Of a stretch of 64,000 bases of DNA, positions 15,037 to 44,098 are shown piece by piece. Below the pieces are notes generated by a model that was not told the DNA's origin, made no database searches, and was given only the letters and a program-made list of their open reading frames with translations. This DNA comes from a virus, in the IMG/VR virus record IMGVR_UViG_3300017991_000010, positions 1 to 64,000 of that record, one strand, 5' to 3'. The translations under genes were made by a program, and so were the position numbers. The stretch's first letter is position 1, and every line of letters begins with the position of its first letter.

Positions 15037-15095
15037 GTCGTCTCTCCCTCAGCCGGCGTTGCTCATCAGTGCAGGACTAGCCGGTGTACCTGCAG

Positions 15096-15114: not shown

Positions 15115-15124
15115 TTCGCACCGC

Positions 15125-22486: not shown

Positions 22487-23017
22487 ATGAGACTAGCGGC
22501 GGTCCCCTCGTACCATACCCAGCGATATCAGGGCACAACCAATACCGTCCGTCACATGGACCAGCTGGCGCGAGGGCCCAGGGGCGAGCGCTCCATGAAG
22601 CTGCGCATGACCGTCGAGGACATCGTCTCCGGCGTCGAGCCACGTGATCGCGTCAGCCAGCTCGCGGCCATCTACGCTTGGTTCAACGATCACTTCCACT
22701 ACATCAACGACCCCGTCGAGGTCGAGCTGGTCAAGGACCCTGAGCGCCTGCTCGAGGAGATCGAGCGCCGCAACGTGGCCATGGGCGACTGCGACGACGC
22801 AGCCACCTTTCTGTTCGCCGCGCCGCGCACCATTGGCATCCCTACCGAGTTCCTTCGGGTTGGCTTCAAGGCCAACGCGCCGATGGGGGGGCGCCTGACG
22901 CACGTGCTCGTGTGCGCCACCGACCAGTACGGCCGGCGCGTTCTCCTGGACCCAGTGGCGGGCAAGCGCGTGCCCAACATGGTTGAGCGCGTCAAACACG
23001 CCGTGAGGGGGTACTGA
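22487..23017 (+). CDS. Transglutaminase-like cysteine protease fold protein
   Basis: 176 residues; ATG behind CAGGAGTCTGTGC. The core GDCDDAATFL (Cys102), LTHVLV (His139) and VLLDPVAGK (Asp155) is the Cys-His-Asp triad of the transglutaminase/papain-like family. Family members cleave or cross-link proteins. As the first gene of the structural operon it could process or cross-link virion proteins. An internal MKLRMTVED at residue 37 is a less likely start. Confidence 0.82.
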   Translation: MRLAAVPSYHTQRYQGTTNTVRHMDQLARGPRGERSMKLRMTVEDIVSGVEPRDRVSQLAAIYAWFNDHFHYINDPVEVELVKDPERLLEEIERRNVAMGDCDDAATFLFAAPRTIGIPTEFLRVGFKANAPMGGRLTHVLVCATDQYGRRVLLDPVAGKRVPNMVERVKHAVRGY

Positions 23018-23928
23018 TGCCCACGCTGCTCCGCACCACTGCTGCGCCCGTCGTCCCCGTCCACAAGCCCGAGAAGGCCGAGGCGCCGCCGGACGTGCGC
23101 CAAGTCCGCAGGCCCAAGGTCACCTCGCGCTTTTCAGTCGCGCCAGTAGTCGCGCCAATCCACAAACTGAAGTCCTCCGCGGCGTTGGCTCCGGTCGCGC
23201 CAGTAACCGCGCCAGTTCAGCGAGCGCCGGCCAAGTCGCCCGACCCGCTGCCGCCGGCGATCACGACGAGGACGGCGCTCATGCGAGCGGCACGCGCCGC
23301 GCGCCCCGCTGCCGCGCCCGACCCGCTCCCGCCTGCGATCAGCGTCCAGGCGCCAGCGCGCAAGATCTTTGCCAGAGAGGAACGAGAGATGGTCCCATTC
23401 ATCAGCCAGACCCCGCCGCGCGAGCAGATGGCCCGTGAGGAGCAGTACGCCACCGAGCGCATGCAGAAGGTCCCGGCCACCCCATTCGTCAGCAAGAAGC
23501 AAGCGGCGGCGGCCAAAGCCGAGCGCGAAACGATGCTCGAGAAGCCGCCGGAGGTCTCCCCGGGCGAGAAGGTCCCGATCGTCGAGGTCGAGAAGGCCGA
23601 CCCGGTCCCCGCTGATGTCACGCCGATCAAACAGCCCGTGTACGTCCCGGCGGCGACGATGACCCCCCGCGAGGTGGCGATGGACGCGGCCCGACAGGCT
23701 GCGGCGCGCGGCGAGGGCCTGTTGCAGCAGCCCGAGGCTCCCGTGCAGCGTCGCGGATTCCAGCTCATGCACCTCTTGCCCTTTGCCCTGGGTGGCCTGG
23801 GCGGCTACCTCGGGCATCGTTACGCCAAGAAGCGAAAAGTGGCGGGCGCGGCCGTAGGGGCCGTTGCCGGTCTTGCGCTCCCAACGATCGTGCTGTACCT
23901 GCTGATGACCATCGGCCACCGGCAGTAG
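23017..23928 (+). CDS. Proline/alanine-rich protein with C-terminal membrane hairpin
   Basis: 303 residues. The first 240 are disordered and rich in P, A, V and K, with repeated blocks such as DPLPPAI (twice). Two hydrophobic helices near the end (about 252-272 and 278-300) flank HRYAKKRK, so the tail forms a membrane hairpin with both ends on one side. The long disordered arm resembles a scaffold-like linker. Overlaps the upstream stop. Confidence 0.8.
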   Translation: MPTLLRTTAAPVVPVHKPEKAEAPPDVRQVRRPKVTSRFSVAPVVAPIHKLKSSAALAPVAPVTAPVQRAPAKSPDPLPPAITTRTALMRAARAARPAAAPDPLPPAISVQAPARKIFAREEREMVPFISQTPPREQMAREEQYATERMQKVPATPFVSKKQAAAAKAERETMLEKPPEVSPGEKVPIVEVEKADPVPADVTPIKQPVYVPAATMTPREVAMDAARQAAARGEGLLQQPEAPVQRRGFQLMHLLPFALGGLGGYLGHRYAKKRKVAGAAVGAVAGLALPTIVLYLLMTIGHRQ

Positions 23929-23943
23929 GAAAGGAACAGAGTC

Positions 23944-24171
23944 ATGAAGAAGCAGTTTGAGCTGGGCATCTTCCAGCCCCACCGCAAGAACGGCCCCAAG
24001 TGCGCCATCTGCTACGAGCCCCTCCAGGGCGGCGAAGAGGCAGAGGGCCCGCCCGAGGAGCCCGCCCCCGTCGTGCAGCAGGCTGGCTTCGGCCTGCCGA
24101 GCTGGTCGGTTTGGATCGCCCTGGGCATCGCCGGCTACTTCGGCCTGAAGCACTTCAAGGTGATCAAGTAG
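23944..24171 (+). CDS. Tail-anchored protein with CxxC and LPSW motif
   Basis: 75 residues; start behind GGAAAGGAACAGAGTC. CAIC (residues about 20-23) could bind metal. LPSWSVWIALGIAGYFGL then forms a membrane helix that ends in KHFKVIK. The LPSW motif before the helix recurs in the 24868 and 35294 products. No N-terminal signal peptide. Confidence 0.75.
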   Translation: MKKQFELGIFQPHRKNGPKCAICYEPLQGGEEAEGPPEEPAPVVQQAGFGLPSWSVWIALGIAGYFGLKHFKVIK

Positions 24172-24172
24172 C

Positions 24173-24400
24173 GTGGCCACTCTCGACCAGATCGCCTCGA
24201 CCCTCGAGCGCATAGACGCACGCCTGGACCGGCTCGACGCGCGCCTCCTGGTGATGGAGTCCAACATCACCATGATCCGTGAGGCGTACGTCAAGTGGGG
24301 CCAGCGCATCGCGTCGCTCGAGGTCGAGGCAGAGAAGAGAGCGGACAGGCTCACGCCCGTCCCCGAGCCGGAGGTGCTAGATGTTCGCGCGATTCGCTAA
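24173..24400 (+). CDS. Small coiled-coil protein, GTG start
   Basis: 75 residues from a GTG 2 nt after the upstream stop. A heptad-type coiled coil (about 5-60) is followed by a proline-rich tail. It overlaps the next gene by 20 nt. Could be an internal virion protein. Confidence 0.65.
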   Translation: MATLDQIASTLERIDARLDRLDARLLVMESNITMIREAYVKWGQRIASLEVEAEKRADRLTPVPEPEVLDVRAIR

Positions 24401-24866
24401 CCGCAACGCGCCCTGGAAGCGCTGCTCGCTGTGCGGGCCCTCCTCGGGCATGGGGCTGATCCCGCCGCTCACGAGCACGTCCGACCTGACGCGCATGATC
24501 CGCGACCGGATCGCCATCTACCGCAGCGCCGAGGGCGCCGAGTGGTCGGCGGCGCACGCGTCCTTGCGCGAGGCGGTCCTCGCCGGACGCTCCCGCGTCG
24601 AGGAGGGGCAGCCCCCCGTCGTGCCCGACCAGGAGTGGGCCGCACTCAACGCAGCCCTGCGTGAGGCCTACGCGGCCGGGCGCGAGCAGATGGGCCAGAA
24701 GGGTGAGGCGCCGGGCGTGCAAGCCTACGTCCCGCCCATCCCGGAGCCGCCCGGAGGGGCTGCCGAGGGGGGGAGCGTGACCGGCAGCTCGAGGGCCTGG
24801 ATGCTGGGCGGCGGCCTTGCGCTTGGTGCGCTCGCGCTCGTGTTCCTTGCGACGAGAGGAAAGTGA
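24381..24866 (+). CDS. Tail-anchored structural protein
   Basis: 161 residues. The N-terminus holds RCSLCG. The middle is helical and P/G-rich. The C-terminus is a 20-residue membrane helix followed by FLATRGK. This is the same build as many genes in this block: soluble head, single C-terminal helix, short basic tail. Confidence 0.75.
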   Translation: MFARFANRNAPWKRCSLCGPSSGMGLIPPLTSTSDLTRMIRDRIAIYRSAEGAEWSAAHASLREAVLAGRSRVEEGQPPVVPDQEWAALNAALREAYAAGREQMGQKGEAPGVQAYVPPIPEPPGGAAEGGSVTGSSRAWMLGGGLALGALALVFLATRGK

Positions 24867-24867
24867 C

Positions 24868-25461
24868 ATGCGACGAGGATGGCAGAAATACCCGCGCCGG
24901 CACGTGTTCAGTACGCCGGGACTGAGCGACCTCCCGGCTGCGCTGGCGACTCTGCAGCAGCAGATGAACGGGCGGGCGCACACCGTGACGACGCGCCTTG
25001 CGGCACTGCGCGCAGGCTCGGGCACAGAGGCCTCGGTCGTGCAGGCGCTCCAGAGCCTCGCGTCCGTGCTAGGTCAGGCCCAGACGGCCGCAGACGGGCC
25101 GGCTCCCGCGGGCGCGACTCCGGCCGAGTGGCAGGGCTTCAAGGACACGCTCCGACGCAAGCGCTACACGTACACGTCGGCCTCGGCCGAGCTGGGACGC
25201 ATCTCGGCAGGGCGCCAGGCGGCTGCGGGCGTGACCCCAGCACAGGCGACCGTGACCTCGCCGACCACGGGCAAGCAGGCGACCGTCACGACTCGGACCT
25301 CTGCCGGCGCCGCGATCCCGCCCGAGATCCAGCAGGCAGCTGCCGAGCACCAGACCGCGGGCGTGTTCGCTGGACTCCAGGGCTTGCCCTCGTGGGCGTT
25401 GCCCGTGGGCGCGGGCCTCGCTGTTGCGGCCGTGGCGTACTTCGCGACGAAGAAGAGGTAG
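24868..25461 (+). CDS. Tail-anchored structural protein with LPSW motif
   Basis: 197 residues; ATG after GAGAGGAAAGTGAC. A basic N-terminus, a helical middle and a threonine-rich region (about 128-150) precede LPSWALPVGAGLAVAAV and the tail FATKKR. Nearly the same end is found in the 35294 product. Probably sits in the virion membrane with the head on the outside or inside. Confidence 0.78.
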   Translation: MRRGWQKYPRRHVFSTPGLSDLPAALATLQQQMNGRAHTVTTRLAALRAGSGTEASVVQALQSLASVLGQAQTAADGPAPAGATPAEWQGFKDTLRRKRYTYTSASAELGRISAGRQAAAGVTPAQATVTSPTTGKQATVTTRTSAGAAIPPEIQQAAAEHQTAGVFAGLQGLPSWALPVGAGLAVAAVAYFATKKR

Positions 25462-25464
25462 CAA

Positions 25465-26088
25465 ATGGCCACCGCTGCGTCATGCAAGACGAACATTCAG
25501 GCTGGGATTCTATGGCTCGAGGCAAAGCGCAACGAGTTCATGGAACAGGTGAGCGACTTTGCGCGTCGCACTGGCCGCGTGCTCTCCTACGCGACGATCT
25601 TCCAGTCCCAGAGCTTGGCAGCCGGCCTGGTGGACTACTACACGCGGCTTGAGGCAGCCCGCACCCGACTCTACAACGATGCACAGGCATGCGTGCCTCT
25701 GGCTGGGTCGGACCCAGATGTGGCTGGACTCGTGCGCAGCGCCGTCACGGCAATCCGCGAGGCCGAGACCATCATGGAGGCGTACCGGGGCTCGGCGCTC
25801 TACCAGGGGCGCGCGGATCGCGTGTCAGAGGTAGCTCAGTACGCCATTGAGCGCCCGCAGGAAGTGGCAGCAGCCACAACGGCACGCATCGAGCGCGCCC
25901 GGGTGTACCTTGACGCAGCTGGGAGCGTGTACGGGGGCGTGCAGGACATTGTGCGCGGCGAACAGCCGGAGCCGTCAGGCTGGGACCTGCCAACAAGCGC
26001 GCGCATGGCTCTCATGATCGCAGCCGGCGGCGGCCTCGGGCTCGGTGCGATCTACGTGATGAAGCGATTCGGGCTCCTCGGGGCCTAG
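25465..26088 (+). CDS. Tail-anchored structural protein, YG-RGE family
   Basis: 207 residues; start behind AGGTAGCAA. Helical head. The segment SVYGGVQDIVRGEQPEPSGW matches SIYGSIAGAIRGET in the 34676 product. A C-terminal membrane helix (about 182-200) ends MKRFGLLGA. Likely paralogue of the 34676 protein. Confidence 0.78.
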   Translation: MATAASCKTNIQAGILWLEAKRNEFMEQVSDFARRTGRVLSYATIFQSQSLAAGLVDYYTRLEAARTRLYNDAQACVPLAGSDPDVAGLVRSAVTAIREAETIMEAYRGSALYQGRADRVSEVAQYAIERPQEVAAATTARIERARVYLDAAGSVYGGVQDIVRGEQPEPSGWDLPTSARMALMIAAGGGLGLGAIYVMKRFGLLGA

Positions 26089-26102
26089 AGAGGAATACGG
26101 CA

Positions 26103-26489
26103 ATGATACCGAGATGGGCAAGTGCTCACATCCTGTCCAGGCCAACCGAGGAGCTGATCTACACGATGACGCAGGGCGCGTTGGAGATCAACGCTGGGTT
26201 CGATGGCCCGGTCACTTACACAGCTGGGGGCCGATCGGCGGCTGTACCGAAGGTGGAGCTGGAACGCGCTCGCTACCGAGCACTACGGTCACGAGGAGTC
26301 GACGTGGACGCGGCGCTACGCAGCGGGCTGAGGGCGTCGGGCAGTTTTCAGCAAGGGCCGGTTGACCCAGCGATCCTGCGCCAAGCGGGCATTGTCGCAG
26401 GTCCACTGGGCATCCCGACCCGCTACTACCTGTACGGTGGGCTGGGTCTGGCGGGCCTGGCGCTGTTGCACATGATAACGAGGAGATAG
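26103..26489 (+). CDS. Tail-anchored structural protein
   Basis: 128 residues; start behind GAGAGGAATACGGCA, a site reused at 27045. The head is basic with a helix of arginines. The C-terminus is a membrane helix rich in G and L ending HMITRR. Confidence 0.75.
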   Translation: MIPRWASAHILSRPTEELIYTMTQGALEINAGFDGPVTYTAGGRSAAVPKVELERARYRALRSRGVDVDAALRSGLRASGSFQQGPVDPAILRQAGIVAGPLGIPTRYYLYGGLGLAGLALLHMITRR

Positions 26490-26491
26490 GT

Positions 26492-26851
26492 ATGCCAGGG
26501 ATCACGGACGTACTCAGCCAGGGACCGATCGCGTTCCTGCAGACCTACCGCGGGCCATGCACCGACACTGCCCAATGCTGTGCGTTGGTACGCGCCGCCT
26601 CGGAGGGCGGGCTGCAGCAGATCCTGTCGGGCGAGGCGTCTCCCTCGTTGCCTCCGATCTTCTCTTGCCACACGGCTGCCCGAGAGGCGTTGACAGAGCG
26701 GCAGACCAACAGGAGCATCCGCAACGCCATGATGATCGGGGGGGTTGCTGGCGCGGTTGTTGGCGAGCGTTTGGGCGGCGGGTGGATGCTCGCGATCTGT
26801 GGGATCGCCGGATCACTCGTCGGGCGGGCTCTGGCGTGGCCTAGGGGCTGA
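26492..26851 (+). CDS. Membrane protein of structural block
   Basis: 119 residues. The head contains CTDTAQCC and another cysteine near 59, perhaps disulfides. Two glycine-rich hydrophobic segments (about 80-92 and 98-114) end RALAWPRG. Role in the virion membrane inferred from context. Confidence 0.72.
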   Translation: MPGITDVLSQGPIAFLQTYRGPCTDTAQCCALVRAASEGGLQQILSGEASPSLPPIFSCHTAAREALTERQTNRSIRNAMMIGGVAGAVVGERLGGGWMLAICGIAGSLVGRALAWPRG

Positions 26852-27033
26852 TGATGAACTACGCAGAGCTGATTTGGCGCGCGGCTGGACTCGGTGTGGG
26901 GGCCCTTGCCGGTTGGCTGGTTGCTGGTAGAACGGGCGCTCTAGTGGTAGGCGGCGCGGGGGCGCTCTTTACCCCAGAGTTGATTGCTTACGGAGCACGC
27001 GCGAGTCGTGCGGCTCGCACGATCGCACGATAG
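26851..27033 (+). CDS. Small membrane protein
   Basis: 60 residues; ATG overlaps the upstream stop, with a second ATG at 26854. Glycine/alanine-rich hydrophobic segments fill most of the length and the end is basic (RASRAARTIAR). Confidence 0.7.
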   Translation: MMNYAELIWRAAGLGVGALAGWLVAGRTGALVVGGAGALFTPELIAYGARASRAARTIAR

Positions 27034-27044
27034 AGAGGAATACG

Positions 27045-27614
27045 ATGCCACAGTACGTAAACGGGAAACTCTACAACATGCACGGCGAGGGCTCGGTCCC
27101 GATCGGCCCGGCCATCCCCTGGCGCGGGGGCGTCTTCGGACAGCCGCCGCTCCCCCAGCCGCGCGCGGGCATCTTCACCGCCCACTGGCCCCTGCCCTGG
27201 CAGGCCCAGACCGACAACACGATCGGTCCGCGGCACAACCTCCTGCCCGATCGCTACATGCGCTCGAGCGGCTGGCCCGTCTACGGCTTGGGCGACAACC
27301 AGAACGTCGAGTACGGCGCGGGGCGGGGCATGATCTCGCGTCTCGTCGCAGGTGGCGTGGCGCCCCTGCGCACGGCCATGTCTGTCGAGGGAGCGACCTC
27401 GATGGCCGCAGCCAACCCGGCGATCCTCGGTGCGCTCATCGGCGCGATCGGCGCGGGCAAGGGCAAGCGCCTCAAGGGCGGTCTGCTCGGCGCGTTGCTG
27501 GGCATCGGCGGCAAGATGACCGCGCAGGCGGTCTCGGGCCCCACAGCCATGGGCGCGCAGGCGGGCGGCGCTGCCACGGGCGGCCTCGCTGCGGCGCTGT
27601 TCCTGCGGAGGTAG
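27045..27614 (+). CDS. Membrane protein with glycine-zipper C-terminus
   Basis: 189 residues; start behind GAGAGGAATACG. The first 110 residues are P/G/W-rich and probably folded as loops. From residue about 125 there are glycine-zipper segments (GALIGAIGAGKGK..., LLGALLGIGGK) and a hydrophobic end FLRR. Glycine zippers pack membrane helices together. Confidence 0.75.
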   Translation: MPQYVNGKLYNMHGEGSVPIGPAIPWRGGVFGQPPLPQPRAGIFTAHWPLPWQAQTDNTIGPRHNLLPDRYMRSSGWPVYGLGDNQNVEYGAGRGMISRLVAGGVAPLRTAMSVEGATSMAAANPAILGALIGAIGAGKGKRLKGGLLGALLGIGGKMTAQAVSGPTAMGAQAGGAATGGLAAALFLRR

Positions 27615-27616
27615 TC

Positions 27617-28078
27617 ATGCCCAAGATCACGGCAGGCTCGAACCTGTACAACGCGGACCCGCCGCGCCAGCCCGGCCCAGGCGGCCGTAGCTACCCGGCG
27701 TACGGGCGTGAGTGCCCCCCGGCGGCCCTGCGTCCCATCTCGAGCGGCTACAACACGATGATGTCCACCGGCTACCCCACGCGCTCGGCGTGCCTGAAGT
27801 GCGGCCCTCCTACGGTCGCGCCATACTGGTCGGGCGGGGGGATGGCAGGCATGGGCGTGGGCACGACGATCGCTGCGTTGCTCTTCACGGGCATCGGAGG
27901 CGTGATCGCGGCCTACATGGCCCCAGACGGCCGCCGGCTCGTCGGCGCGCTTGCGGGTGGCATCCTCGGGTGGGGCACCTCCTATGCCGTCAACGAGATG
28001 ACGGGCAGCGTGGGTGCAGCGGCCGTGTCCCAGGTTCCGGCAGGCATCCTGGCGGGCATGCTCGCGAGAAAGCTATGA
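27617..28078 (+). CDS. Membrane protein, partner of the 27045 product
   Basis: 153 residues; start behind GGAGGTAGTC. N-terminal 70 residues are P/G/Y-rich with CPP and CLKCG. Residues about 75-150 contain three hydrophobic glycine-rich segments ending MLARKL. Same build as the previous gene, so they may form a pair. Confidence 0.75.
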   Translation: MPKITAGSNLYNADPPRQPGPGGRSYPAYGRECPPAALRPISSGYNTMMSTGYPTRSACLKCGPPTVAPYWSGGGMAGMGVGTTIAALLFTGIGGVIAAYMAPDGRRLVGALAGGILGWGTSYAVNEMTGSVGAAAVSQVPAGILAGMLARKL

Positions 28079-28248
28079 ACCGCGCCCTCTACAACCCAGC
28101 CCTGAGCGATGGCTTCCGCATCGGAGGAGGCTTCGGCGCAGGCATGATCGCTTTCCTCGTCATCGGAGGCGTGGTAGTCTTGTGGCTACTGGACCACGCG
28201 ATCGGCGATCAGTCGGTCGAGGCGAGATGGAGGAGGACCCACAGATGA
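28075..28248 (+). CDS. Small single-helix membrane protein
   Basis: 57 residues; ATG overlaps the upstream stop. One hydrophobic helix (about 18-40) is followed by a basic tail RWRRTHR. Confidence 0.65.
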   Translation: MNRALYNPALSDGFRIGGGFGAGMIAFLVIGGVVVLWLLDHAIGDQSVEARWRRTHR

Positions 28249-28553
28249 TCCTCTCAGCACGACGACCCGACGGCACGTACGTCTACTACCAGGCCGCCAA
28301 GCACCCTGGCCGCGCCAAGGGCCCCAGGCCCGGCGCTATCGGCCTCGGTGTCGAGCAGGCCGTGCCCACCTGCCCCTGGGGCGCGAAGCGTGTCGGCAGC
28401 GGCAGGCGCGCTCGTGGCGTGGTTTGTCGGCAAGGCGGCCTCGCGGGCCTGGGCGATCTCGCAGGCATGAGCGGCCCCATCGCGGGCATCCTTCTCACAG
28501 CGGCCCTGTTCGGTGCGGTCTGGCTGGCCGGGCCGATCCTGTCGGGGCGCTGA
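28245..28553 (+). CDS. Tail-anchored basic protein
   Basis: 102 residues; ATG behind GGAGGAGGACCCACAG. The head is basic and proline-rich. A C-terminal hydrophobic helix (about 78-98) ends LSGR. Same build as its neighbours. Confidence 0.72.
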   Translation: MILSARRPDGTYVYYQAAKHPGRAKGPRPGAIGLGVEQAVPTCPWGAKRVGSGRRARGVVCRQGGLAGLGDLAGMSGPIAGILLTAALFGAVWLAGPILSGR

Positions 28554-29041
28554 TGACCCTCGCCGCCGTCAAGAACCGCTGGTCGACCTTCCATCAGAAG
28601 GAGCCGCGCGAGCTGATCGAGATCGACGCGCCCTGGCCCAAGGCCTGGGGCTACGTTGGCGAGGCCGTGCGCGTCTACTACCTCAGCGACAAGTGGAACG
28701 AGGACGGCGACTTCATCCCGTACTACCACGACCACGACGGCGGGGTCGAGCTGTGGGAGCCCTGGGGCGCGCAGGACGGCATGACCGACAAGTGCAAGAG
28801 CCCCGCGCGCGGCATCCCCTGCAAGCAGGCAGCGGTCCTGGGCTACTGCCTGGGCTGGTGGCTGCTCGACGAGGACGACCCCAAGAAGGTCGACGCGGTC
28901 GAGTTCGATGAGGACGAGGCGCTCCTGTGCTCGACGGCATCGGGCAAGGCGCTCTTCGTGGTGAGCTTGAGCGATGGCAAGGTCATAGCGGCGTTTACTG
29001 GTGGCAACCTGTCCGTCGAGTCGGCGGGCATCGACGGCTAG
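28553..29041 (+). CDS. Hypothetical soluble protein
   Basis: 162 residues; ATG overlaps the upstream stop as TGATG. Aromatic and acidic, with CKSPARGIPCK in the middle. No membrane segment, unlike the genes before it. No family recognised. Confidence 0.75.
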   Translation: MTLAAVKNRWSTFHQKEPRELIEIDAPWPKAWGYVGEAVRVYYLSDKWNEDGDFIPYYHDHDGGVELWEPWGAQDGMTDKCKSPARGIPCKQAAVLGYCLGWWLLDEDDPKKVDAVEFDEDEALLCSTASGKALFVVSLSDGKVIAAFTGGNLSVESAGIDG

Positions 29042-29051
29042 AGGTGATGAA

Positions 29052-29327
29052 ATGGCGTTCATGATCCCGGTGTATAGCAAGGCGGACTTCGTAGAGGTTG
29101 ATGGCAGCTACGGCGACACGTTCCTGGTTCCGTTCGAGTACTACGACGAGGATTCTGGCGAGATCGTGGAGGAGTACTCGGGCAAGTGGTTCTGTCAGCT
29201 GAGTGCCCCCGGCTACATGGACCAGACCGACTGGATGGGGCCCTTCGACACACTCAAGGAGGCGAAAGCCGAGCTGAGCGACGTCTACGAGGTCGACCCG
29301 GAGACGGGCGAGCAGTTGGAGTACTAG
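29052..29327 (+). CDS. Small acidic protein
   Basis: 91 residues. Start at 29052, after GAGGTGATGA; an ATG at 29047 is in another frame. Beta-rich first half with aromatic residues, then an acidic helix (TLKEAKAELSDVYEV). No family recognised. Confidence 0.7.
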   Translation: MAFMIPVYSKADFVEVDGSYGDTFLVPFEYYDEDSGEIVEEYSGKWFCQLSAPGYMDQTDWMGPFDTLKEAKAELSDVYEVDPETGEQLEY

Positions 29328-29330
29328 ACG

Positions 29331-29870
29331 ATGGCACGGCGATCCGACTATCAGTGGTCCCGCAACTCCTCGGTGGAGGCGCGCGAGCTGGCGATCTTCA
29401 TCGACAACGACGGGCAGCTCTACCGGCAGATGGTGGTGCCCATTCAGAAGAACCTCGTGACCAAGATGGCACGCGGGACGTACGACAGCGAGAAGGCCCA
29501 CAAGGCGTTCTACAACCTCGCCGTCGAGGGCGCCAAGCGCTACACCAATACGCACGGCGGACGAGGGGCCGTGTGGCACGAGATGTTCTCCGTAGCCGAC
29601 CGCAAGGCCGCAGCCGCCGAGCTGCTCGCGGGCTTCGAGGAGGAGGCCGAGCTGGGCAACTACGACGACCTCCTGCCGAAGAAGTACCGGCGAAATGCGG
29701 GCGGATCGGATATGGTCCCCCACCCCAACGTCAACTGGTGGGATCGTGAGGATCTGGAGCGCTACTTGGTGTGGCGTGGGTTTGCGGTGTACGCCAGAGA
29801 GACCGACGACGAGCTGCGGAACGCTGTGCGAGAGGATCTGCCCCAGGCTGAAGCTGACGGCTGGATCTAG
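29331..29870 (+). CDS. Hypothetical protein, last gene of structural operon 1
   Basis: 179 residues. Helical, with RGTYDSEKAHKAFYNLAVE near residue 44, a segment seen in small phage proteins of unknown role. C-terminal half is acidic with a DREDLERYLVWRGFAV motif like short SAP/HeH-type helices. It ends 4 nt inside the end of the minus-strand HTH gene. Confidence 0.75.
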   Translation: MARRSDYQWSRNSSVEARELAIFIDNDGQLYRQMVVPIQKNLVTKMARGTYDSEKAHKAFYNLAVEGAKRYTNTHGGRGAVWHEMFSVADRKAAAAELLAGFEEEAELGNYDDLLPKKYRRNAGGSDMVPHPNVNWWDREDLERYLVWRGFAVYARETDDELRNAVREDLPQAEADGWI

Positions 29871-30106: not shown

Positions 30107-30114
30107 ATGGTAGC

Positions 30115-30143
30115 ATCATACTAGATCGTAGAGCGTCGGTCAA
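30115..30143 (-). promoter_or_regulatory. Promoter of the minus-strand HTH gene
   Basis: On the minus strand TTGACC (30143-30138), 17 nt, TATGAT (30120-30115). The ATG at 30106 begins 9 nt after the -10 box, so the leader is at most 2 nt. Confidence 0.65.
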
Positions 30144-30212
30144 CGCGCGAAGATCATTGCACCCGACCAAGAAGACCACCTTCCTTCTGGGCGCGCACGC
30201 CCGCGAGACGTA

Positions 30213-30242
30213 TTGACTCCCTCCCTCCAGCGCGCGTACTCT
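30213..30242 (+). promoter_or_regulatory. Promoter of capsid operon
   Basis: TTGACT (30213-30218), 18 nt, TACTCT (30237-30242). The expected start near 30249 leaves a leader of about 50 nt. The -10 box is identical to that of the 16190 promoter. Confidence 0.6.
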
Positions 30243-30300
30243 TGATCGCGTACCCACCGATGCGCCGCCCGGCCTCATCGGCCAACGAAAGGGCGGCTCT

Positions 30301-31917
30301 ATGGCTCGAGTGACCTACCGCAGCAGGCGCCGGACGGCCAAACCCAACCCGGGCTTCCTGACCCTGGTCAATCCGGGCAAACCCCCCCGCAAGCGGAAAC
30401 GAGCCAAGCCCAAGAAGCGAACCACGGGGGCCAGCCGGCGCCCGAGAGCAAACAGCACTGGAGGAACAATGCTGAGAAGGAAAAAGCGGCGCGCAGCCCC
30501 GAAGCGTCGGCGCAAGGTCGCCAAGCGCAACCCGATGTCGGCTGCCAAGCGCAAGGCCGCAGCCAAAAAGGCTGCCCGGACCCGCGCTGCCAACAAGCGG
30601 AAGCGGTCCCTCGCGGCCAAGAAGGCCGCCCGGACGCGCAAGCGCAAGTCGCGCAAGCGTGCAGCCCCGAAGCGCTCGTACCGGCGCAATGCTTCCAAAA
30701 AGCGGAAGCTGACCGCGGCGCAGAAAAAGCGGCGCGCAGCTGCCCTCAAGGGCATCCGGCTCAAGAAGGGCCGCAAGGGCAAAAAGCGCAAGGTCACCAA
30801 GGGCGTCAGCCCCCGGCCCAACCGCAGGCGGCGCGTGACCCGTCGGCGTAGGAGCTACATGCGCAACAGGCCCGTCCGTAGGCGGCGCATCAGGCGCAGG
30901 GCCAAGCGGAACGTCGGGCTGGAGATGCTCAAGAGCGTGGGCGCTGGCTTCGCCGGCTTCCTGGCGGGTCGACTGACCGCCAACATGCTTGCTCGGGCGA
31001 CCTTCCTGCCCGCAGCTGTGCAGCCCTACGTGCCCCTCGTCGGAACCGTCGGCGCTGTGGCGCTGGCCTACTACCTCCCGAAGAAGGTCAAGGCCCTCAG
31101 GGTCAAGCCGGCCACGCACACCGCTCTGGTGCTCGGCACCGGCATCGCGGCTGCGGACGTGCTCTTCTCGTCCCTGGCCCCCGCCAGCGTGCGTCAGTAC
31201 GTCGGCGCTCCCCCGCCTGTGGCCATCCCCGGCCTCTCGGGCGACCTGAGCGTCTACGAGGCCTCGCTGCGCGGCTTCGGCACCCCGCCCGCCTTCCTCG
31301 ACGAGAGCGGCGACTGGGGCATGCAGCCCATGTTGCCCGGCCGGAGCTACCCCGTGGGCAAGTCCATGGCCGAGTACGTGCAAGAGCCCCTGGGCGCCAC
31401 CGTACACGAGGCGATGGCCGAGTACATCCAGGAGCCCGGCATGGGCGAGTACGTCGTGGACGAGGATGGCGCAGTCCTCTCCGGCCATGACGAGCTGGAC
31501 GCAGGCGTCGTGAGCGACGGCCTGTTCGGCGACGACGTGGACATCATGGCTCTCGATGGGGACGAACTCCCTTTTGAGGGTAGCGCAGCTGCCGGCGCCG
31601 CCGCGGCTGCAGCGCGTCGCATGGCTCAGATCGGCGCAGCCAACGGCCGCCCCGAGGCTGAGGTCCACCGTGCCGGCTACGGCGCAGCGTGCCAGGCCAT
31701 TGGCGCGGGTCAGCTCTCGAGCGCCCTGCGTGCGATGGTCGAGGCGGAGATCCAGAAGGCCATGGGCCGCGTGCAGGCGTTCACGCCCGTGCAGGACCCG
31801 GCCGCTGGCGCCCCGATGGCCGTCGGCCCGATCCGCGCCCCCCAGCCCGCCAAGTGGACCTACGGGTCCGTGAGCGAGGGCGGAGGCGTCTTCGGGAAGT
31901 CGAGCATCGGCGGCTAG
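30301..31917 (+). CDS. Histone-like basic domain fused to membrane segments, probable virion protein
   Basis: 538 residues. Residues 1-205 are extremely basic, with histone-H1-like AAKKAARTR units repeated at about residues 80-120 and many RRRR and KKRK runs. Hydrophobic helices follow at about 209-228, 241-260 and 268-290. The rest is acidic, with repeated MAEYVQEPLG/MAEYIQEPGMGEYV blocks (about 358-388) and an alanine-rich segment. The likely reading is a virion protein whose N-terminus binds DNA at the inner face of a membrane. It begins the operon that holds the proposed coat proteins. Confidence 0.85.
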   Translation: MARVTYRSRRRTAKPNPGFLTLVNPGKPPRKRKRAKPKKRTTGASRRPRANSTGGTMLRRKKRRAAPKRRRKVAKRNPMSAAKRKAAAKKAARTRAANKRKRSLAAKKAARTRKRKSRKRAAPKRSYRRNASKKRKLTAAQKKRRAAALKGIRLKKGRKGKKRKVTKGVSPRPNRRRRVTRRRRSYMRNRPVRRRRIRRRAKRNVGLEMLKSVGAGFAGFLAGRLTANMLARATFLPAAVQPYVPLVGTVGAVALAYYLPKKVKALRVKPATHTALVLGTGIAAADVLFSSLAPASVRQYVGAPPPVAIPGLSGDLSVYEASLRGFGTPPAFLDESGDWGMQPMLPGRSYPVGKSMAEYVQEPLGATVHEAMAEYIQEPGMGEYVVDEDGAVLSGHDELDAGVVSDGLFGDDVDIMALDGDELPFEGSAAAGAAAAAARRMAQIGAANGRPEAEVHRAGYGAACQAIGAGQLSSALRAMVEAEIQKAMGRVQAFTPVQDPAAGAPMAVGPIRAPQPAKWTYGSVSEGGGVFGKSSIGG

Positions 31918-31992
31918 CAACTGAAACGACCGGCGCCTCTCCTCGCCATGGAGGCTAAAGAAACGGCGTCGGCAAGCATAGAGGAGGCAGTA

Positions 31993-32604
31993 ATGCCTAA
32001 GATTCGCGGAGCAAGAGAGAAGCGCCACCAGCCGTTCTGGGATAGCCTGATTCGCGGCACGGCGGGCAGCTACACGTTCGCATCCGGCGCAAACGCGCTG
32101 GGCGCGACCAACAACCTGTTCCAGACCCAGTCGGGCGGGAACCTGGCGATCACCAACATGGAAGGCAGCGGCGTCTTCCCGTCGGATCAGACCTACCGAA
32201 TCCTCGCGATGCGCGTGGGACTGCACTTCCGCGGGATCACCGGCGGCGGCCTGACCGATCACATCATGTACCACCGAGCCGCCTGCCAGCTCTTCTGGGA
32301 GCTGTTCGTCGCCCAGAAGTCGGCGTTCCAGGCGTACACGCCCTACCTGCCCCTCGGCGGCGGGCTCTTCGGTGACGTCGGCAACGACACGACCGTGTAC
32401 TTCAACAACGGAAACCCGGGCATGGACGCGACCATGGTTCTCGCCCGCAGCATCGCCCTCCCGGCGAGGCAGAACTTCCGCGTCGTGAACACGATCGTGG
32501 CCTGCGGCGCCGCCAACTTCCTCACCGACATCGGCAGCGTGACCGGCGGGGAAATCTGGATCTGGTACACGGTGGACGGCTTGCACGTCCGCGACATCCT
32601 GTAG
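31993..32604 (+). CDS. Beta-rich protein, candidate coat subunit 1
   Basis: 203 residues; start at MPKIRGAR because GAGGAGGCAGTA precedes it (an in-frame ATG at 31948 has none). Alternating strand pattern throughout, such as QTYRILAMRVGLHFRGI and EIWIWYTVDGLHV, and a basic N-terminal arm. No known family is certain. Size, strand content and position beside two similar genes suggest a single-jelly-roll-type coat subunit. Structure prediction would decide. Confidence 0.8.
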   Translation: MPKIRGAREKRHQPFWDSLIRGTAGSYTFASGANALGATNNLFQTQSGGNLAITNMEGSGVFPSDQTYRILAMRVGLHFRGITGGGLTDHIMYHRAACQLFWELFVAQKSAFQAYTPYLPLGGGLFGDVGNDTTVYFNNGNPGMDATMVLARSIALPARQNFRVVNTIVACGAANFLTDIGSVTGGEIWIWYTVDGLHVRDIL

Positions 32605-32655
32605 CAGCTGCTCCCACGCGGGAGTTTCGACTGCAGGATAGTTCGAGTTTCATAC

Positions 32656-32690
32656 CCCCCACCGTCTGGCGTGACGCTGGGCGGTGGGGG
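32656..32690 (+). other. Hairpin between proposed coat genes
   Basis: CCCCCACCG (32656-32664) and CGGTGGGGG (32682-32690), with a 17-nt loop, in the 141-nt gap between the first and second coat-like genes. It may stop part of the transcripts or protect the upstream mRNA, and so set protein ratios. Confidence 0.5.
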
Positions 32691-32745
32691 AGTGCCCCTG
32701 CCAGGGGGCTACCCACTGCCCCGGGCAGTTAGGAGAAAGCAAAAG

Positions 32746-33384
32746 ATGACCATCCCCTCCCTCAACAACCTGGCCAAGGCCATCCGCACGATCGATGGTA
32801 GGTTCAAGGCGCTCCAGCAGAACATCCTCCAGCGCCAGGACAACCTCGACAAGCTCCTCGTAGGGCGCGAGCCCACCGAGTCAGATCGCTTGGTTGCGTG
32901 CGCGGCGAAGATCATCCCCTTCCACTACGTGATCGACATCGACTTCGACGCGGCAGACACGGCCAGAAGGCCCGGCACCGTGACCATCACACAAGAGGGC
33001 TACTTCTTGATGGATCGGCTGTACGCTTGCTGGCGCCCCACTGACGGCGCATTCATCGGTCGTTACCAGCCGATCTCGAGCGACAGTCCTGCTATCGCCA
33101 ACGCCGAGTTAGTCAGCGGTGGTCAGTTCGCAAACAAGGTCGACTTCACCTGGGAACTCGTCGAGGGCGCGGCCCAAAGGGGTCGTCAGGACTTCGCAGT
33201 CCCCGGCGCGATCCTCTACCGGACCGATGACGACGGCTACACCCAGAAGTGCAGCGACATCTTCATGCCGGCCTCGGTCGTCACGCTCTCCTGCACCCCG
33301 CTGTACGCGACGGCCACCGCAGGCACCTTCACCTTCGTGCTCGCTGGCCGCCAGCTCCTCAACGTCGTGGAGGGCGGAGCGTGA
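32746..33384 (+). CDS. Beta-rich protein, candidate coat subunit 2
   Basis: 212 residues; start at MTIPSLNN behind AGGAGAAAGC. An N-terminal helix of about 45 residues (NLAKAIRTIDGRFKALQQNIL) is followed by a beta-rich domain with FHYVIDIDFDA, GTVTITQEGYFLMD and GTFTFVLAGRQLL. The helix plus barrel plan fits a coat protein that reaches the membrane below, but this is inference. Confidence 0.8.
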   Translation: MTIPSLNNLAKAIRTIDGRFKALQQNILQRQDNLDKLLVGREPTESDRLVACAAKIIPFHYVIDIDFDAADTARRPGTVTITQEGYFLMDRLYACWRPTDGAFIGRYQPISSDSPAIANAELVSGGQFANKVDFTWELVEGAAQRGRQDFAVPGAILYRTDDDGYTQKCSDIFMPASVVTLSCTPLYATATAGTFTFVLAGRQLLNVVEGGA

Positions 33385-34019
33385 GTGTGACTCGCCCAAA
33401 CAGGCGGCTGCGCGCGGGAGACCCGGCGCCCGCTGTGGCCGGCAAGCCCTCTGCAGGCGGCATCATCCGCCCCGGCGCGCCCGAGGCGGAGGCATGCGGC
33501 TGCAACTGGAATCGCAACGTCTTCTGGGAGGACTTCCCCTGGGAGAAGGTAAGTTGGTTCAGTCGCGAGGCGCGCGTCAGTATAGCCGCCGGGCCTGGCC
33601 AGTATGTCGTCGACACATTCACGATCCCACGGGGACAAGTGCTTGCCCTGACGTCGGTCTTGTTCCGCGTGGTCGTCCAGCTGGGGGGTGTTGCGGGACC
33701 TTACTTCTTCCTGCCGGATGACGGTGTCTTGTTTCAGTGCGCCTTTGGGTTCATGATCGGCGGCACGTCTCCATTCGATCGCTACTTCAATATGGGGCTA
33801 GGCGACCAGAACCGCTGGGAGGTACTCAACCGGAACATTGCAACCGCTGGCGTTCCGTGGCGCACCTACGCTTTTGAGGGGCAGGATGTCGTCTCGGTCT
33901 TCGACGCGCCTCTCCTTCCAGCCAACGCAACATTTGCGCTTGTCGAGTACCAGGGCGTCTGGATTCCCAAGAGGACCTACGACATGTACCGAGAGAAGTT
34001 CACCGGGGGGCGTGGCTGA
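33381..34019 (+). CDS. Beta-rich protein, candidate coat subunit 3
   Basis: 212 residues from a GTG overlapping the upstream TGA. A 40-residue flexible N-terminus contains CGCNW. The remainder is strand-rich (FTIPRGQVLALTSVLFRVVVQL, FALVEYQGVWIP). Third in a row with similar size and secondary structure. A vertex or minor coat protein is an alternative. Confidence 0.78.
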   Translation: MSVTRPNRRLRAGDPAPAVAGKPSAGGIIRPGAPEAEACGCNWNRNVFWEDFPWEKVSWFSREARVSIAAGPGQYVVDTFTIPRGQVLALTSVLFRVVVQLGGVAGPYFFLPDDGVLFQCAFGFMIGGTSPFDRYFNMGLGDQNRWEVLNRNIATAGVPWRTYAFEGQDVVSVFDAPLLPANATFALVEYQGVWIPKRTYDMYREKFTGGRG

Positions 34020-34672
34020 TGGCTGCTGCTGAACAGGTCGCCGGCCGAGCACCTACCGAAGTCGAGAAGCGCGATGTGGCCGCGCGCCTCGAGCGCCTGC
34101 GCAAGTCCATCAGCGCGTTCCATCGGGCGCGCCTGAAGACCGGCGAGTACCTCATGGGCATGCGCAAGATGCGCTACCCCCAGGCCCAAGGCATCGAGGT
34201 GGCGCGATCGCTCCGTAGCCCCGTGGACGAGGAGCGCGCCGTTGGCGGCCTGCGCTCGCTCAACCAGCTCTTGCTCGGGCGCGATCCTACGGTCGCCGAG
34301 ATGGAGGCTGGCGTAGCGGTCCAGGAGACAGGCCTCGGGATCATCCCTGCGCTGCCTGCCACTTGGGTCGCCGTCACGGCCATCGCAGGCGGGGCCTGGT
34401 CCCTGTCCTCGATCTTCGACGCCCTGACCGAGCGCGAGCGCCGCATCCAGCGCGAGCTGAACCCCTCGGCGGCATTCTGGTCGGACGTAGCCAACACCGC
34501 AGCGACCTGGGTCTTGCCCGTGCTCATCGTGGGGGGCGTGGTCGTGGGCGGCTGGTACCTCTGGTCCAGGATGAAGAAGGGCAAGGGCCGCAAGCGCAAG
34601 GGCAAGCTCCAGAGCAAGCGCCCTGCCAAGAAACTGCCGCCGAAGCCGGCGGAGAAAGAGAAAGAGGAGTAG
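34019..34672 (+). CDS. Two-helix membrane protein with basic tail
   Basis: 217 residues. A charged helical N-terminus (with a conserved-looking ERLRKSISAFHRARLKTGEYL) precedes two hydrophobic helices (about 117-136 and 162-182). The tail is highly basic (KKGKGRKRKGK...KRPAKK) and could touch DNA. It follows the coat-like genes directly. Confidence 0.8.
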   Translation: MAAAEQVAGRAPTEVEKRDVAARLERLRKSISAFHRARLKTGEYLMGMRKMRYPQAQGIEVARSLRSPVDEERAVGGLRSLNQLLLGRDPTVAEMEAGVAVQETGLGIIPALPATWVAVTAIAGGAWSLSSIFDALTERERRIQRELNPSAAFWSDVANTAATWVLPVLIVGGVVVGGWYLWSRMKKGKGRKRKGKLQSKRPAKKLPPKPAEKEKEE

Positions 34673-34675
34673 CCA

Positions 34676-35287
34676 ATGCAGACTCCTGTCAACGACTACA
34701 TCGCCCGGCTTGCGACGCGGCTGGCCAACAGGACCTTGCGCCGGCTCGCGACGATCCCCATGGCGCAGAAGCGCGCGCTCTCTCTCCGCGGCATCCTGCG
34801 CCAGCTGAACGTGGAGAAGGTCTACGAGGCGGCTGTCTCCGGCGGCATGAACCCCAAGACCGCCCTCGTCGCAGCCTACGCCGAGTACCTACGCAGACAG
34901 GGCGGCCTACCCCAAGGCGGCCTTGCTGACTTCGAGGAGGACATGGCCCAGGCCGAGCAGATCATGGGCGCCATCGAACAGGGCGCGGACACGCTGGAGC
35001 ACGTCGTCGACACGGGCACCTCCATCTACGGCTCGATCGCCGGGGCCATCCGCGGCGAGACCACGGGCGAGTCCCCGCCCCAGCTCACCGAGGAGGGCGC
35101 GCGGCGCCTGGCCCAGATCCGCGCGGGCGGTATCGCCGTGGGCCAGCCGGTCGCGGCGCCTGGCGTGCTCGATTCCATACTCGGCGGCGGCCCGGGAGGC
35201 ATGTCGACATCCATCCTGATCGGCGGGGCGGCGGCTGGCGCAGCGCTGCTCTACTTCCTCGCGACCAAAAAGAAGAAGCGGAAGTGA
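34676..35287 (+). CDS. Tail-anchored structural protein, YG-RGE / RLAQIRAGG family
   Basis: 203 residues. Contains SIYGSIAGAIRGET (shared with the 25465 product) and QLTEEGARRLAQIRAGGIA (shared with the 35294 product), then a C-terminal membrane helix and the tail ATKKKKRK. It links the two structural operons by shared modules. Confidence 0.82.
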   Translation: MQTPVNDYIARLATRLANRTLRRLATIPMAQKRALSLRGILRQLNVEKVYEAAVSGGMNPKTALVAAYAEYLRRQGGLPQGGLADFEEDMAQAEQIMGAIEQGADTLEHVVDTGTSIYGSIAGAIRGETTGESPPQLTEEGARRLAQIRAGGIAVGQPVAAPGVLDSILGGGPGGMSTSILIGGAAAGAALLYFLATKKKKRK

Positions 35288-35293
35288 TCACCG

Positions 35294-36574
35294 ATGAACG
35301 CCGGCAACGCCCGCTCGCTCACGTGGCTCGAGTACTACGGCATCCTGCGCGCCCAGGGGAAGTCCCCTCGGGCCGCAGCCGTCTTCTGTGAGCAGCCCTC
35401 CGAGGAGGCAGCCGAGCGCTTCACCCAGCTCTCCGAGATCGCTAGCCTCATGCAGCAGTCGCGCTCGGCCGTCCGCGACGTAGCCTTCACCACCCAGGCC
35501 AACATCATCTCGGCCGTGCCTGTCGTGGGCAACTTTGCCGCGCGCGTGCTCGGCTGGATGCGCGACCTCGTCTCCGCCATCGAGAAGGTGCAGCGTCAGG
35601 CGTGCGAGGACGACTGCCCAGGCATCAACAGCTGGGCGCGACGCAACATCATTGGCATCAACCCGGGCCCCGGTGGCATGGAGGTCATGGGCACGCTCAT
35701 CTGGAGCCTGCACGACGGCCTCGTTGTCGACGGGCTCGGGGGCGGCGCCGACGCGCTGGGGCGGTACGTGGGCGTGATCACGCGCGTGGGCCCGGCCGAC
35801 TCCGGCAGGACGACCTCCGAGGGCGTGTGGTCCACCGACTCGCGCTATGCCTCCCTGCTCGACCCGCGGGTGGCGCGAGAGGGCCGCTACGCCAACTGGC
35901 CGCCGGCTGGCATCCCCGAGGGCAACTACGCCCACCCCGAGGCTGCCCCCGGCAACAACTTCTGGTACAGGGCCTGGCGCGTCCAGCAGATCCTGAACTG
36001 GATGGAGAACAAGATGAGCTGCCGGGACGCCTGGTGCTTCCGCGAGCAGCTGCGCACCTTCTCCATGGCGATCAAGGGCGCGCTCAAGGAGGAGGGCGTC
36101 GCCGCTGAGCAGGCCGACCGCGTCGCGGACCAGGCCACCCGCCGCAAGGGCTCGCGCTGGTACGCGTCGATGTGGCAGCTCCACAAGGACGTCTGGGACC
36201 TCGCCGCCGGCCGCCCCGAGGTCGCAGACGTGGCGCAGGCCCTCGGCGAGACGACCTTCGCGAGCGAGTACCGCGCGGCCATCGCCGGCAAGACGTACCC
36301 CGAGCGCGACCTGCGCATGTGGCCCTGGTGGCCCATCACGAAGAAGCTCTCGTGGGACGGGGCGCGCGCTCTGCTCCTCGAGATCGCTCCCGTGCCCCAG
36401 CTCACGGCAGCGGGCGCGGCGCGCCTTGCTCAGATCCGAGCAGGCGGCATTGCGCTCCAGCAGGCCCAGGCAGCGCGCCCCGTGGCCAGGGACCCCGGAC
36501 TACCCTCCTGGGCGCTCCCGGCCGGTGTGGTTGCCGCTAGCGGCCTTCTCTGGTACCTTCTGAAGGGAAAGTAA
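35294..36574 (+). CDS. Large tail-anchored structural protein with LPSW motif
   Basis: 426 residues. The head is alpha-helical with many tryptophans and two cysteine groups (ACEDDCPGI, CRDAWCF). The end holds QLTAAGAARLAQIRAGGIA, then LPSWALPAGVVAASGLLWYL and KGK. This end combines the modules of the 34676 and 24868 products. No catalytic motif is seen. A membrane-anchored spike or vertex protein is possible. Confidence 0.82.
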   Translation: MNAGNARSLTWLEYYGILRAQGKSPRAAAVFCEQPSEEAAERFTQLSEIASLMQQSRSAVRDVAFTTQANIISAVPVVGNFAARVLGWMRDLVSAIEKVQRQACEDDCPGINSWARRNIIGINPGPGGMEVMGTLIWSLHDGLVVDGLGGGADALGRYVGVITRVGPADSGRTTSEGVWSTDSRYASLLDPRVAREGRYANWPPAGIPEGNYAHPEAAPGNNFWYRAWRVQQILNWMENKMSCRDAWCFREQLRTFSMAIKGALKEEGVAAEQADRVADQATRRKGSRWYASMWQLHKDVWDLAAGRPEVADVAQALGETTFASEYRAAIAGKTYPERDLRMWPWWPITKKLSWDGARALLLEIAPVPQLTAAGAARLAQIRAGGIALQQAQAARPVARDPGLPSWALPAGVVAASGLLWYLLKGK

Positions 36575-36582
36575 GAGGTAGC

Positions 36583-37497
36583 ATGCCTACGTTCGGAAAG
36601 AGTGTCACCGTACAGGCCGCCCCTGGGACGACCACGACCACCACGCAGGCGCCCACGACGGCAGCCGCGCAGTCGGCGTCACTGCCCACAACCTCGGGCA
36701 CCACGGCCCTGCTCGCAGGCGTGGTCACCGTGCCCGACAGCGAGCGCGGCGGCTACATCGCTTGGAAGGGGCGCTACAGCGGTAGGTGGCCGACCCCCGG
36801 CCCTGACGGCAAGGTCACGGCCCAGGCCATCGACCTCTCGGCCTATCGCGTGGCGCGTGATCGCGTCGCAGCCCTCCTGGCGCGCGATGGCGCCGTGGCG
36901 GGCCCTGCGGCTAGCGCCGAACGTGCTGCGCTCGAGGCCCTTTGGCGCGAGGCCGACCCGCACGGGCTGGCCGCCTTCGACCGACGCGTCGTGGCCGCTG
37001 CAACCTTCCAGGGCAACCGGGGCAAGGCGTTGACCTTCGCCCCCCGCGCCTTCAAACAGTGGTTCGACGGCGCCGTGCATCAGGAGGCCGAGCAGCTCGG
37101 GATCAACCGAGACGCCGCCCGCGCGAACATCGTCGCCAAGGGCGTGCCCAACACGGACAAGCAGCGCGTCTTCGGCTTCGACCTGACCGCGGCCCAGCGC
37201 TCCTTCGCTTCGGGCGGCGCGACCACGGGCGGCGAGCCCGAACCCCAGGTGTCGGTGGGCCGGCGCGAGATCTACTCGCCGACCGGGCGCGTGCCCTCGA
37301 CCACGCCCCCTGCCACGGACATGACGATCCCCCCTGGCGCGCCGGCGCCTGATTATGTAGGATACGGAATCTGGGGCGCCCTCGGGGGCGTTCTTGGCGG
37401 TGTGGGCGCAGCAGTGCTCAAACAAGACGCGAAGATCGGGGCGGGCCTGGGCGCGCTCCTTGGCCTCGGCGCGAAGTACGTGACCGGGAGGAGGTAG
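36583..37497 (+). CDS. Tail-anchored protein with threonine-rich N-terminus
   Basis: 304 residues; start behind AAGAGGTAGC. Residues about 12-50 are rich in T and A and disordered, a possible glycan carrier. The middle is a soluble helical domain. Two glycine-rich hydrophobic segments at the end (about 262-280 and 284-300) finish KYVTGRR. Confidence 0.8.
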   Translation: MPTFGKSVTVQAAPGTTTTTTQAPTTAAAQSASLPTTSGTTALLAGVVTVPDSERGGYIAWKGRYSGRWPTPGPDGKVTAQAIDLSAYRVARDRVAALLARDGAVAGPAASAERAALEALWREADPHGLAAFDRRVVAAATFQGNRGKALTFAPRAFKQWFDGAVHQEAEQLGINRDAARANIVAKGVPNTDKQRVFGFDLTAAQRSFASGGATTGGEPEPQVSVGRREIYSPTGRVPSTTPPATDMTIPPGAPAPDYVGYGIWGALGGVLGGVGAAVLKQDAKIGAGLGALLGLGAKYVTGRR

Positions 37498-41848: not shown

Positions 41849-41898
41849 GCGTCAGCGCCGGTCTGCTCGCCCTCCTCCTCTTTCCTCAGAGGTAGTCA

Positions 41899-42453: not shown

Positions 42454-42456
42454 ATC

Positions 42457-44097: not shown

Positions 44098-44098
44098 C

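Follow-up and report, generated by a model that had tools for sequence, protein, structure and literature searches.

We analysed a stretch of viral DNA of 64,000 nucleotides (the window), which corresponds to bases 1-64000 of a 94,028-bp IMG/VR record, i.e. two thirds of the whole virus, and studied a block of genes at positions 22487-37497. The original prediction, made from the letters of the window, had described this block as a run of small tail-anchored membrane proteins in a genome lacking terminase and tail genes, and had proposed that it encodes a large membrane-containing virion. The first 123 bp of the record recur exactly at its end, and because of this repeat the 94-kb genome is probably complete and circular. 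Its G+C content is approximately 66% along the entire length. Positions above 64000 refer to the whole genome.

Genes of the membrane-protein block

The block starts with a gene for a transglutaminase-like protein (22487-23017, +), which matched Pfam Transglut_core and keeps C102, H139 and D155. Directly before it, 19869-21659 (+) encodes a 596-amino-acid (aa) coiled-coil protein with a [FL]G[GS]GxYxV-type motif. The membrane-protein genes that follow are all on the plus strand. The first run comprises a 303-aa protein with a C-terminal membrane helix seen by hydropathy (23017-23928), a 75-aa protein whose C-terminal hydrophobic stretch and basic end fall just below our tail-anchor cut-off (23944-24171), and tail-anchored proteins of 161 aa (24381-24866), 197 aa (24868-25461), 207 aa (25465-26088) and 107 aa (26166-26489), assigned by the tail-anchor rule and, for the 161-aa and 207-aa proteins, also by hydropathy. 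These are followed by two small hydrophobic proteins of 119 and 60 aa (26492-27033) and four small membrane proteins of 189, 153, 57 and 102 aa (27045-28553). Membrane genes thus predominate in the first run, as had been described, but the transglutaminase-like protein and a coiled-coil protein at 24173-24400 are non-membrane proteins.

The middle of the block, also on the plus strand, encodes a 162-aa soluble protein (28553-29041), a 538-aa protein with a Lys/Arg-rich N-terminus and a middle that is hydrophobic by hydropathy analysis (30301-31917), and three beta-rich proteins of 203 aa (31993-32604), 212 aa with an N-terminal helix (32746-33384) and 210 aa (33387-34019). The three beta-rich proteins amid membrane genes agree with the original description. 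The 538-aa protein is a candidate for a link between membrane and DNA. A 217-aa protein with two helices, detected by hydropathy, and a Lys-rich C-terminus (34019-34672) precedes three tail-anchored proteins of 203, 426 and 304 aa (34676-37497, by hydropathy and the tail-anchor rule), the first two of which are also present in a 10.9-kb contig, L003. The C-terminal ends named in the original prediction were verified: ATRGK at 24866, ATKKR at 25461, MITRR at 26489, ATKKKKRK at 35287, LLKGK at 36574 and VTGRR at 37497.

A protein was counted as tail-anchored when a 15-residue window with a mean hydropathy of at least 1.5 was located within its last 40 residues and was followed by net positive charge. 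This was the case for 14 of the 25 genes in 22487-37497 and for 4 of the 135 genes that the 94-kb record has outside this block (Fisher p = 2e-10), confirming the run of proteins with a C-terminal helix and a basic end. For two related contigs, the corresponding counts in and outside the syntenic block were 8/24 versus 5/118 (p = 2e-4) and 11/15 versus 1/48 (p = 2e-8). The counts are approximate, as the 23944-24171 product (1.47) just missed the threshold and alanine-rich stretches that may not span the membrane were counted; the enrichment in the block itself is not in doubt.

Relation to SSIP-1 and to other relatives

The product of 22487-23017 was used for a tblastn search of 50,697 phage records (2.3 Gb). 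One virus, Salisaeta icosahedral phage 1 (SSIP-1), was matched through its gp34 protein (E 2e-3). The transglutaminase family profile matched gp34 with values of 5.5e-19 and 7e-25 (within a small test set), and the shuffle z against gp34 was 12.7 for the 22487-23017 product and 22 for its relative on contig G003, described below. SSIP-1, a phage that lacks a tail, has an internal membrane and a circular double-stranded DNA genome of 44 kbp; its particle measures 100 nm (T=49) and is probably built from single jelly rolls (PMC6260650, table 1). It encodes two types of major capsid protein, and a 2019 review stated that its genome shares hardly any similarity with GenBank entries (PMC6356626).

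A second match to SSIP-1 was obtained with the 162-aa protein of 28553-29041, which also occurs in the related contigs G001 and G003. It resembles the C-terminal 100 residues of gp43 (blastp 0.005, shuffle z 9.9, top profile match 0.015) and shares with them the motif G[ES]A..xYxSDK..GD..YxHD; taken singly, the strength of this match is moderate. Both gp34 and gp43-gp48 are annotated as structural in the SSIP-1 record.

The order of genes was also compared. SSIP-1 has a coiled-coil protein (gp33), a transglutaminase with a tail anchor of its own (gp34), small tail-anchored proteins, gp43, gp44 and gp45-gp48, and the order in the 94-kb virus is coiled coil, transglutaminase, tail-anchored run, the gp43 C-terminus homologue, the hydrophobic protein, the beta-rich proteins of about 210 aa and further tail-anchored genes, although several positions in this agreement with gp33-gp48 were judged by size and composition alone. 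The tail-anchored proteins in the SSIP-1 block are gp34, 36, 39, 41, 42, 50, 53 and 54. Despite the same position and a coiled coil, the 19869-21659 product had no significant match to gp33, and 30301-31917 had no sequence match to gp44, which occupies the same position. The 203-aa protein has a paralogue in both large genomes, in parallel with the two types of major capsid protein in SSIP-1; the sequence match to gp45/gp46 was not significant.

We found a second large virus in IMG/VR using the capsid-candidate gene. G001 (IMGVR_UViG_3300035698_019443), probably a complete genome as well, has 104,264 bp and an exact terminal repeat of 127 bp; such repeats, here and in the 94-kb genome, are compatible with circular DNA or circular permutation. 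All-against-all comparison showed the block in the same order in G001, with identities of 26-58%: 48% for 22487-23017, 41% for 28553-29041, 33% for 30301-31917 (B078), 58% for 31993-32604 (B077), 37% for 32746-33384 (B076), 26% for 33387-34019 (B075) and 31% for 34019-34672 (B074). Of the four small membrane proteins, the first (27045-27614) and the last (28245-28553) were also matched (B081 and B080). In both genomes, the block is followed by a DnaJ-domain gene and glycosyltransferases. Both viruses encode a DNA polymerase, a Cas4-like nuclease, a Sak4-like protein, a SNF2 helicase and an M23 peptidase, whereas their spike and accessory genes differ.

A distant search with the transglutaminase-like gene detected G003, a 41-kb fragment, and G004, a genome of 35,552 bp with a 144-bp repeat, which has the close relatives L026 and L027 (the 35-kb group). 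In G003 and G004, the module includes tail-anchored proteins, a protein of the transglutaminase type and a coiled-coil protein that has a [FL]G[GS]GxYxV-like motif; members of the G004 group additionally encode a hydrophobic protein and, after it, three beta-rich proteins of short length. The motif of the 19869-21659 coiled-coil protein is common to G001 B103, G003 C016 (blast 7e-7 with 19869-21659), G004 D017, L027 and L029. The last of these (JAFNUO010000093.1, 1-11105) comes from a cattle-cecum bin labelled Clostridia and was the sole GTDB match with the transglutaminase family; its module contains a basic hydrophobic protein, four beta-rich proteins, tail-anchored proteins and the transglutaminase-like gene. 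L029 could be a virus, a provirus or a mis-binned contig, and it was dropped as a host pointer, as it is too diverged to name the host of the 94-kb virus. The GTDB contigs searched for a host with 31993-32604 gave no match.

Capsid candidates, terminase and ATPases

The 203-aa protein is a candidate major capsid protein, located at the position of SSIP-1 gp45/gp46. A second, diverged copy is encoded in each large genome, at 69977-70585 here (30-34% identity, outside the window) and at 99468-100007 in G001. The 212-aa protein, at the position of gp47, is a candidate second or vertex capsid protein, and the 210-aa protein, at the position of gp48 and 26-38% identical to G001 B075 and its L003 counterpart, is a candidate minor capsid protein.

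The profile of the 203-aa family reached the position-equivalent proteins of the 35-kb group (best 2e-4), and the top matches of the 212-aa profile were the position-equivalent D007 family (0.05 and 0.17). With a joint profile of the 203-aa protein and the 35-kb group, the best-scoring outside sequence was gp46 (0.78); with the protein that L029 encodes at the capsid position, it was gp45 (0.07). Each value is insignificant by itself. These weak links of the 203-aa family agree on one position and are suggestive. Together with gene position, they argue for a putative capsid role of the beta-rich proteins. Profile searches of PDB sequences with the 203-aa and 212-aa families gave no match, nor did tblastn of 31993-32604 and its 35-kb-group equivalent against the phage records.

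The absence of terminase, portal and tail genes was borne out beyond the 64 kb of the window, as none was found in the whole 94-kb record. The models for the large terminase subunit (TerL; PF03354, PF03237) had no match in the 94-kb genome and the portal model PF04860 had none here or in G001; positive controls matched in known genomes. A PHROGs and Pfam scan of the 86 proteins of at least 130 aa in the whole record gave no terminase, portal or tail among the best 25 families listed, which cover replication, recombination, integrase, glycosyltransferase, methyltransferase and lysin functions; a very weak terminase match may lie below these. Hits to 'tape measure' families were rejected, since they involved nothing but the M23 peptidase domain in the product of 69258-69911 (217 aa).

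An AAA_25 (RepA/RecA-like) ATPase is encoded at 5750-6700 (+) (Pfam AAA_25, 4e-30), has the unusual Walker A motif GPAKKGAKS and is conserved in G001 (B106). AAA_25 proteins mostly act in replication. SSIP-1 gp40 also belongs to AAA_25 (5e-11) and is annotated as structural. The shuffle z against gp40 was 3.4 for B106 and 0.6, i.e. chance level, for the 5750-6700 protein, which is a weak candidate for the gp40 counterpart. None of the called proteins of G004 contains a canonical Walker A motif.

Interpretation and comparison with known viruses

We consider it likely that the genes of the block encode the virion of a large tailless phage, a distant relative of SSIP-1 with an icosahedral shell, an internal membrane and a 94-kb genome of probably circular double-stranded DNA. 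The proposal of a virion in the original prediction is supported, as two genes of the block match SSIP-1 structural proteins in the same order and G001 repeats the block. We infer the particle shape, the lipid, the taillessness, the capsid role of the beta-rich proteins and the functions of the small membrane proteins. Since a second virus, of 104 kb, has the same gene set, there is probably a whole lineage of tailless membrane phages with unusually large genomes.

In the proposed particle, the shell would be built from the 203-aa protein (31993-32604) and its paralogue (69977-70585), and the products of 32746-33384 and 33387-34019 would be further shell or vertex proteins. At least 14 tail-anchored proteins would be held in the cytoplasmic membrane of the host, each through a single helix at its C-terminus, and this membrane would be taken with them into the particle as an inner vesicle. 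The Arg/Lys-rich hydrophobic protein of 30301-31917 may connect the inner membrane with the DNA. The vertex spikes would be formed by beta-helix-like proteins, and an M23 peptidase anchored in the membrane would breach the cell wall. The candidates for vertex spikes or receptor-binding proteins are two paralogous, repeat-rich, beta-helix-like proteins at 42457-45700 (+), which share 43% identity and have weak PHROGs matches to 'tail protein' and 'hydrolase'. The spike-like genes are surrounded, at 39195-52475, by genes for glycosyltransferases, a methyltransferase, a sulfotransferase and an epimerase, several of them common to G001; these enzymes may modify virion or host glycans.

Several observations weigh against this interpretation. 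The identity with gp34 is low (24%) for a homologue, and the transglutaminase-like fold is a widespread one. The beta-rich proteins have no significant direct sequence match to any capsid protein. AlphaFold2 (AF2) prediction for 31993-32604 with a six-row alignment failed (pLDDT 38.6), and that for 32746-33384 gave a helix and a beta sandwich at moderate confidence (pLDDT 62). Every Foldseek match of the latter model had a TM score below 0.5 by query length, and no confident fold was assigned; we dropped the model as jelly-roll evidence because the pLDDT and the fold matches were too weak to name a fold. Structure prediction, suggested as a check and run on these two beta-rich proteins, therefore neither established nor ruled out a jelly roll. 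The other suggested search, for an FtsK/HerA-like packaging ATPase, found none: the HerA/DUF87 and FtsK models (PF01935, PF01580) had no match here, and likewise none in G001, G003, G004 or SSIP-1. Finally, L003 carries the block right after a tailed-phage-like region with portal, MuF-like and protease genes, which were named by reading the sequences, not by profile search.

L003 bears on the strongest of the alternatives, namely a virus of the tailed type (Caudoviricetes) in which the terminase, portal and tail genes have diverged beyond recognition and the membrane proteins act in lysis or host takeover. The DNA polymerase is similar to polymerases in the records of tailed phages, among them Rctr197k and Mel-JY34 (24% identity), and an integrase and an M23 lysin, both encoded here, are common in tailed phages. 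However, the join in L003 coincides with a group I intron (Rfam RF00028, 7000-7259). There, the presumed capsid gene upstream breaks off after 89 codons, the homologue of the 203-aa protein downstream is missing 63 residues at its N-terminus, and the G+C content drops from 60% to 46%. Because of the intron, the truncated genes on both sides and the G+C step, L003 is probably a chimera of two contigs joined through related intron copies, with a real recombinant as the alternative, and we rejected its portal as evidence for a tailed phage. Considering also the missing TerL and portal matches and the homology and synteny with the tailless SSIP-1, a tailed phage is improbable. Rctr197k (197 kb), for which the paper noted no annotated tail gene, was considered as a large relative and rejected, as its record has head-morphogenesis and terminase annotations. 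In L003, the intron adjoins both a tailed-phage capsid gene and the 31993-32604 homologue, which suggests that such introns may use the capsid genes of viruses unrelated to each other as insertion sites.

A tailless membrane virus of the double-jelly-roll (PRD1/PM2) type would explain the membrane proteins and the missing tail equally well, and the weak structural matches of the 32746-33384 model include the N-terminal domain of a giant-virus capsid protein and a protein of Streptomyces phage Forthebois. Nevertheless, the lack of an FtsK/HerA-type ATPase match and the homology to SSIP-1 speak against this type, and capsid candidates of approximately 205 aa are short for the double-jelly-roll fold, so that we regard it as slightly less probable still. 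Least probable is a plasmid, secretion or conjugation system, which could account for many membrane proteins, the missing classical phage structural genes and a probably circular replicon with an integrase, but for which no FtsK/VirD4-type (PF01580) or HerA-type ATPase was found, 31993-32604 occurs in no plasmid of PLSDB, and the block has homologues of structural proteins of a cultured virus.

The preferred relative, SSIP-1, is unclassified. It resembles the 94-kb virus in the homologous gp34 and gp43 C-terminus, the gene order of the module, the runs of small tail-anchored proteins, the proteins of approximately 210 aa at the capsid position, the lack of an annotated terminase, the (here probably) circular genome and the presence of an AAA_25-family ATPase. 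It differs in genome size (43.8 kb versus 94-104 kb), in capsid-position proteins without a significant sequence match, in the length of gp43 (2319 aa versus 162 aa in the counterpart here), and in the location of the second capsid-like paralogue, which is adjacent in SSIP-1 and 37 kb away here. The host of SSIP-1 is a hypersaline Salisaeta. With Sphaerolipoviridae/Helvetiavirae (P23-77, HHIV-2, SH1), the 94-kb virus shares two capsid-like paralogues and the expected tailless icosahedral architecture with an internal membrane, but no sequence match or FtsK/HerA packaging ATPase was found here, and their genomes are far smaller (30 kbp in HHIV-2; PMC6260650). Tectiviridae and Corticoviridae (PRD1, PM2) follow the same tailless, internal-membrane principle; they have genomes of 10-15 kb, a double-jelly-roll capsid protein and an FtsK/HerA-type ATPase (PMC6260650, PMC8328091). 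No such ATPase was found here, and the PDB sequence searches gave no match to a double-jelly-roll protein.

Other features were observed outside the block. A tyrosine integrase is encoded at 54624-55748 (-; PHROGs integrase, 3e-36), and the virus may therefore be temperate. A type II hammerhead ribozyme above the Rfam gathering score is located at 15053-15121 (-), flanked by genes of unknown function (14104-15036 and 15125-15601). A homologue of Tad3, which inhibits the anti-phage system Thoeris, is encoded at genome positions 82568-82936 (-; L002:2568-2936; Pfam PF25185, 4.6e-40) and was not found in G001. The 729-aa Lys/Arg-rich protein at genome positions 65209-67398 (+; L001:2209-4398) has a C-terminus conserved in G001 B011 and G003 C062, and these relatives have HExxH-like motifs (HELGH, HEFGH); it is perhaps a metalloprotease.

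The original prediction gave 10-20 kb for known tailless membrane phages and expected an element of the present size with such a virion to be new. The size range is wrong, as the SSIP-1 genome record has 43,788 bp, and because this premise overlooked SSIP-1, categorical newness is not supported. The 94-kb virus instead represents a larger branch of the SSIP-1 kind; it is new in its size and in the number of relatives that it unites. The table of PMC6260650 contains no prokaryotic virus of this architecture above 44 kbp, and in a literature search that covered few subscription papers we found no published description of large SSIP-1-like viruses. SSIP-1, a near-orphan since 2012, gains relatives of 35 to 104 kb, and the conserved gene module can be used to find more such viruses. 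Genomes of 94 and 104 kb are exceptional, being more than twice that of SSIP-1; they would need a far larger shell than its 100-nm, T=49 particle, and this size range among bacterial viruses has so far been occupied by tailed phages. There is about an even chance that neither a terminase nor an FtsK/HerA-type ATPase serves for DNA packaging in this 94-104-kb lineage, and that either an unrecognised motor does so or shell and membrane assemble around the DNA. The mechanism of packaging thereby becomes a testable question.

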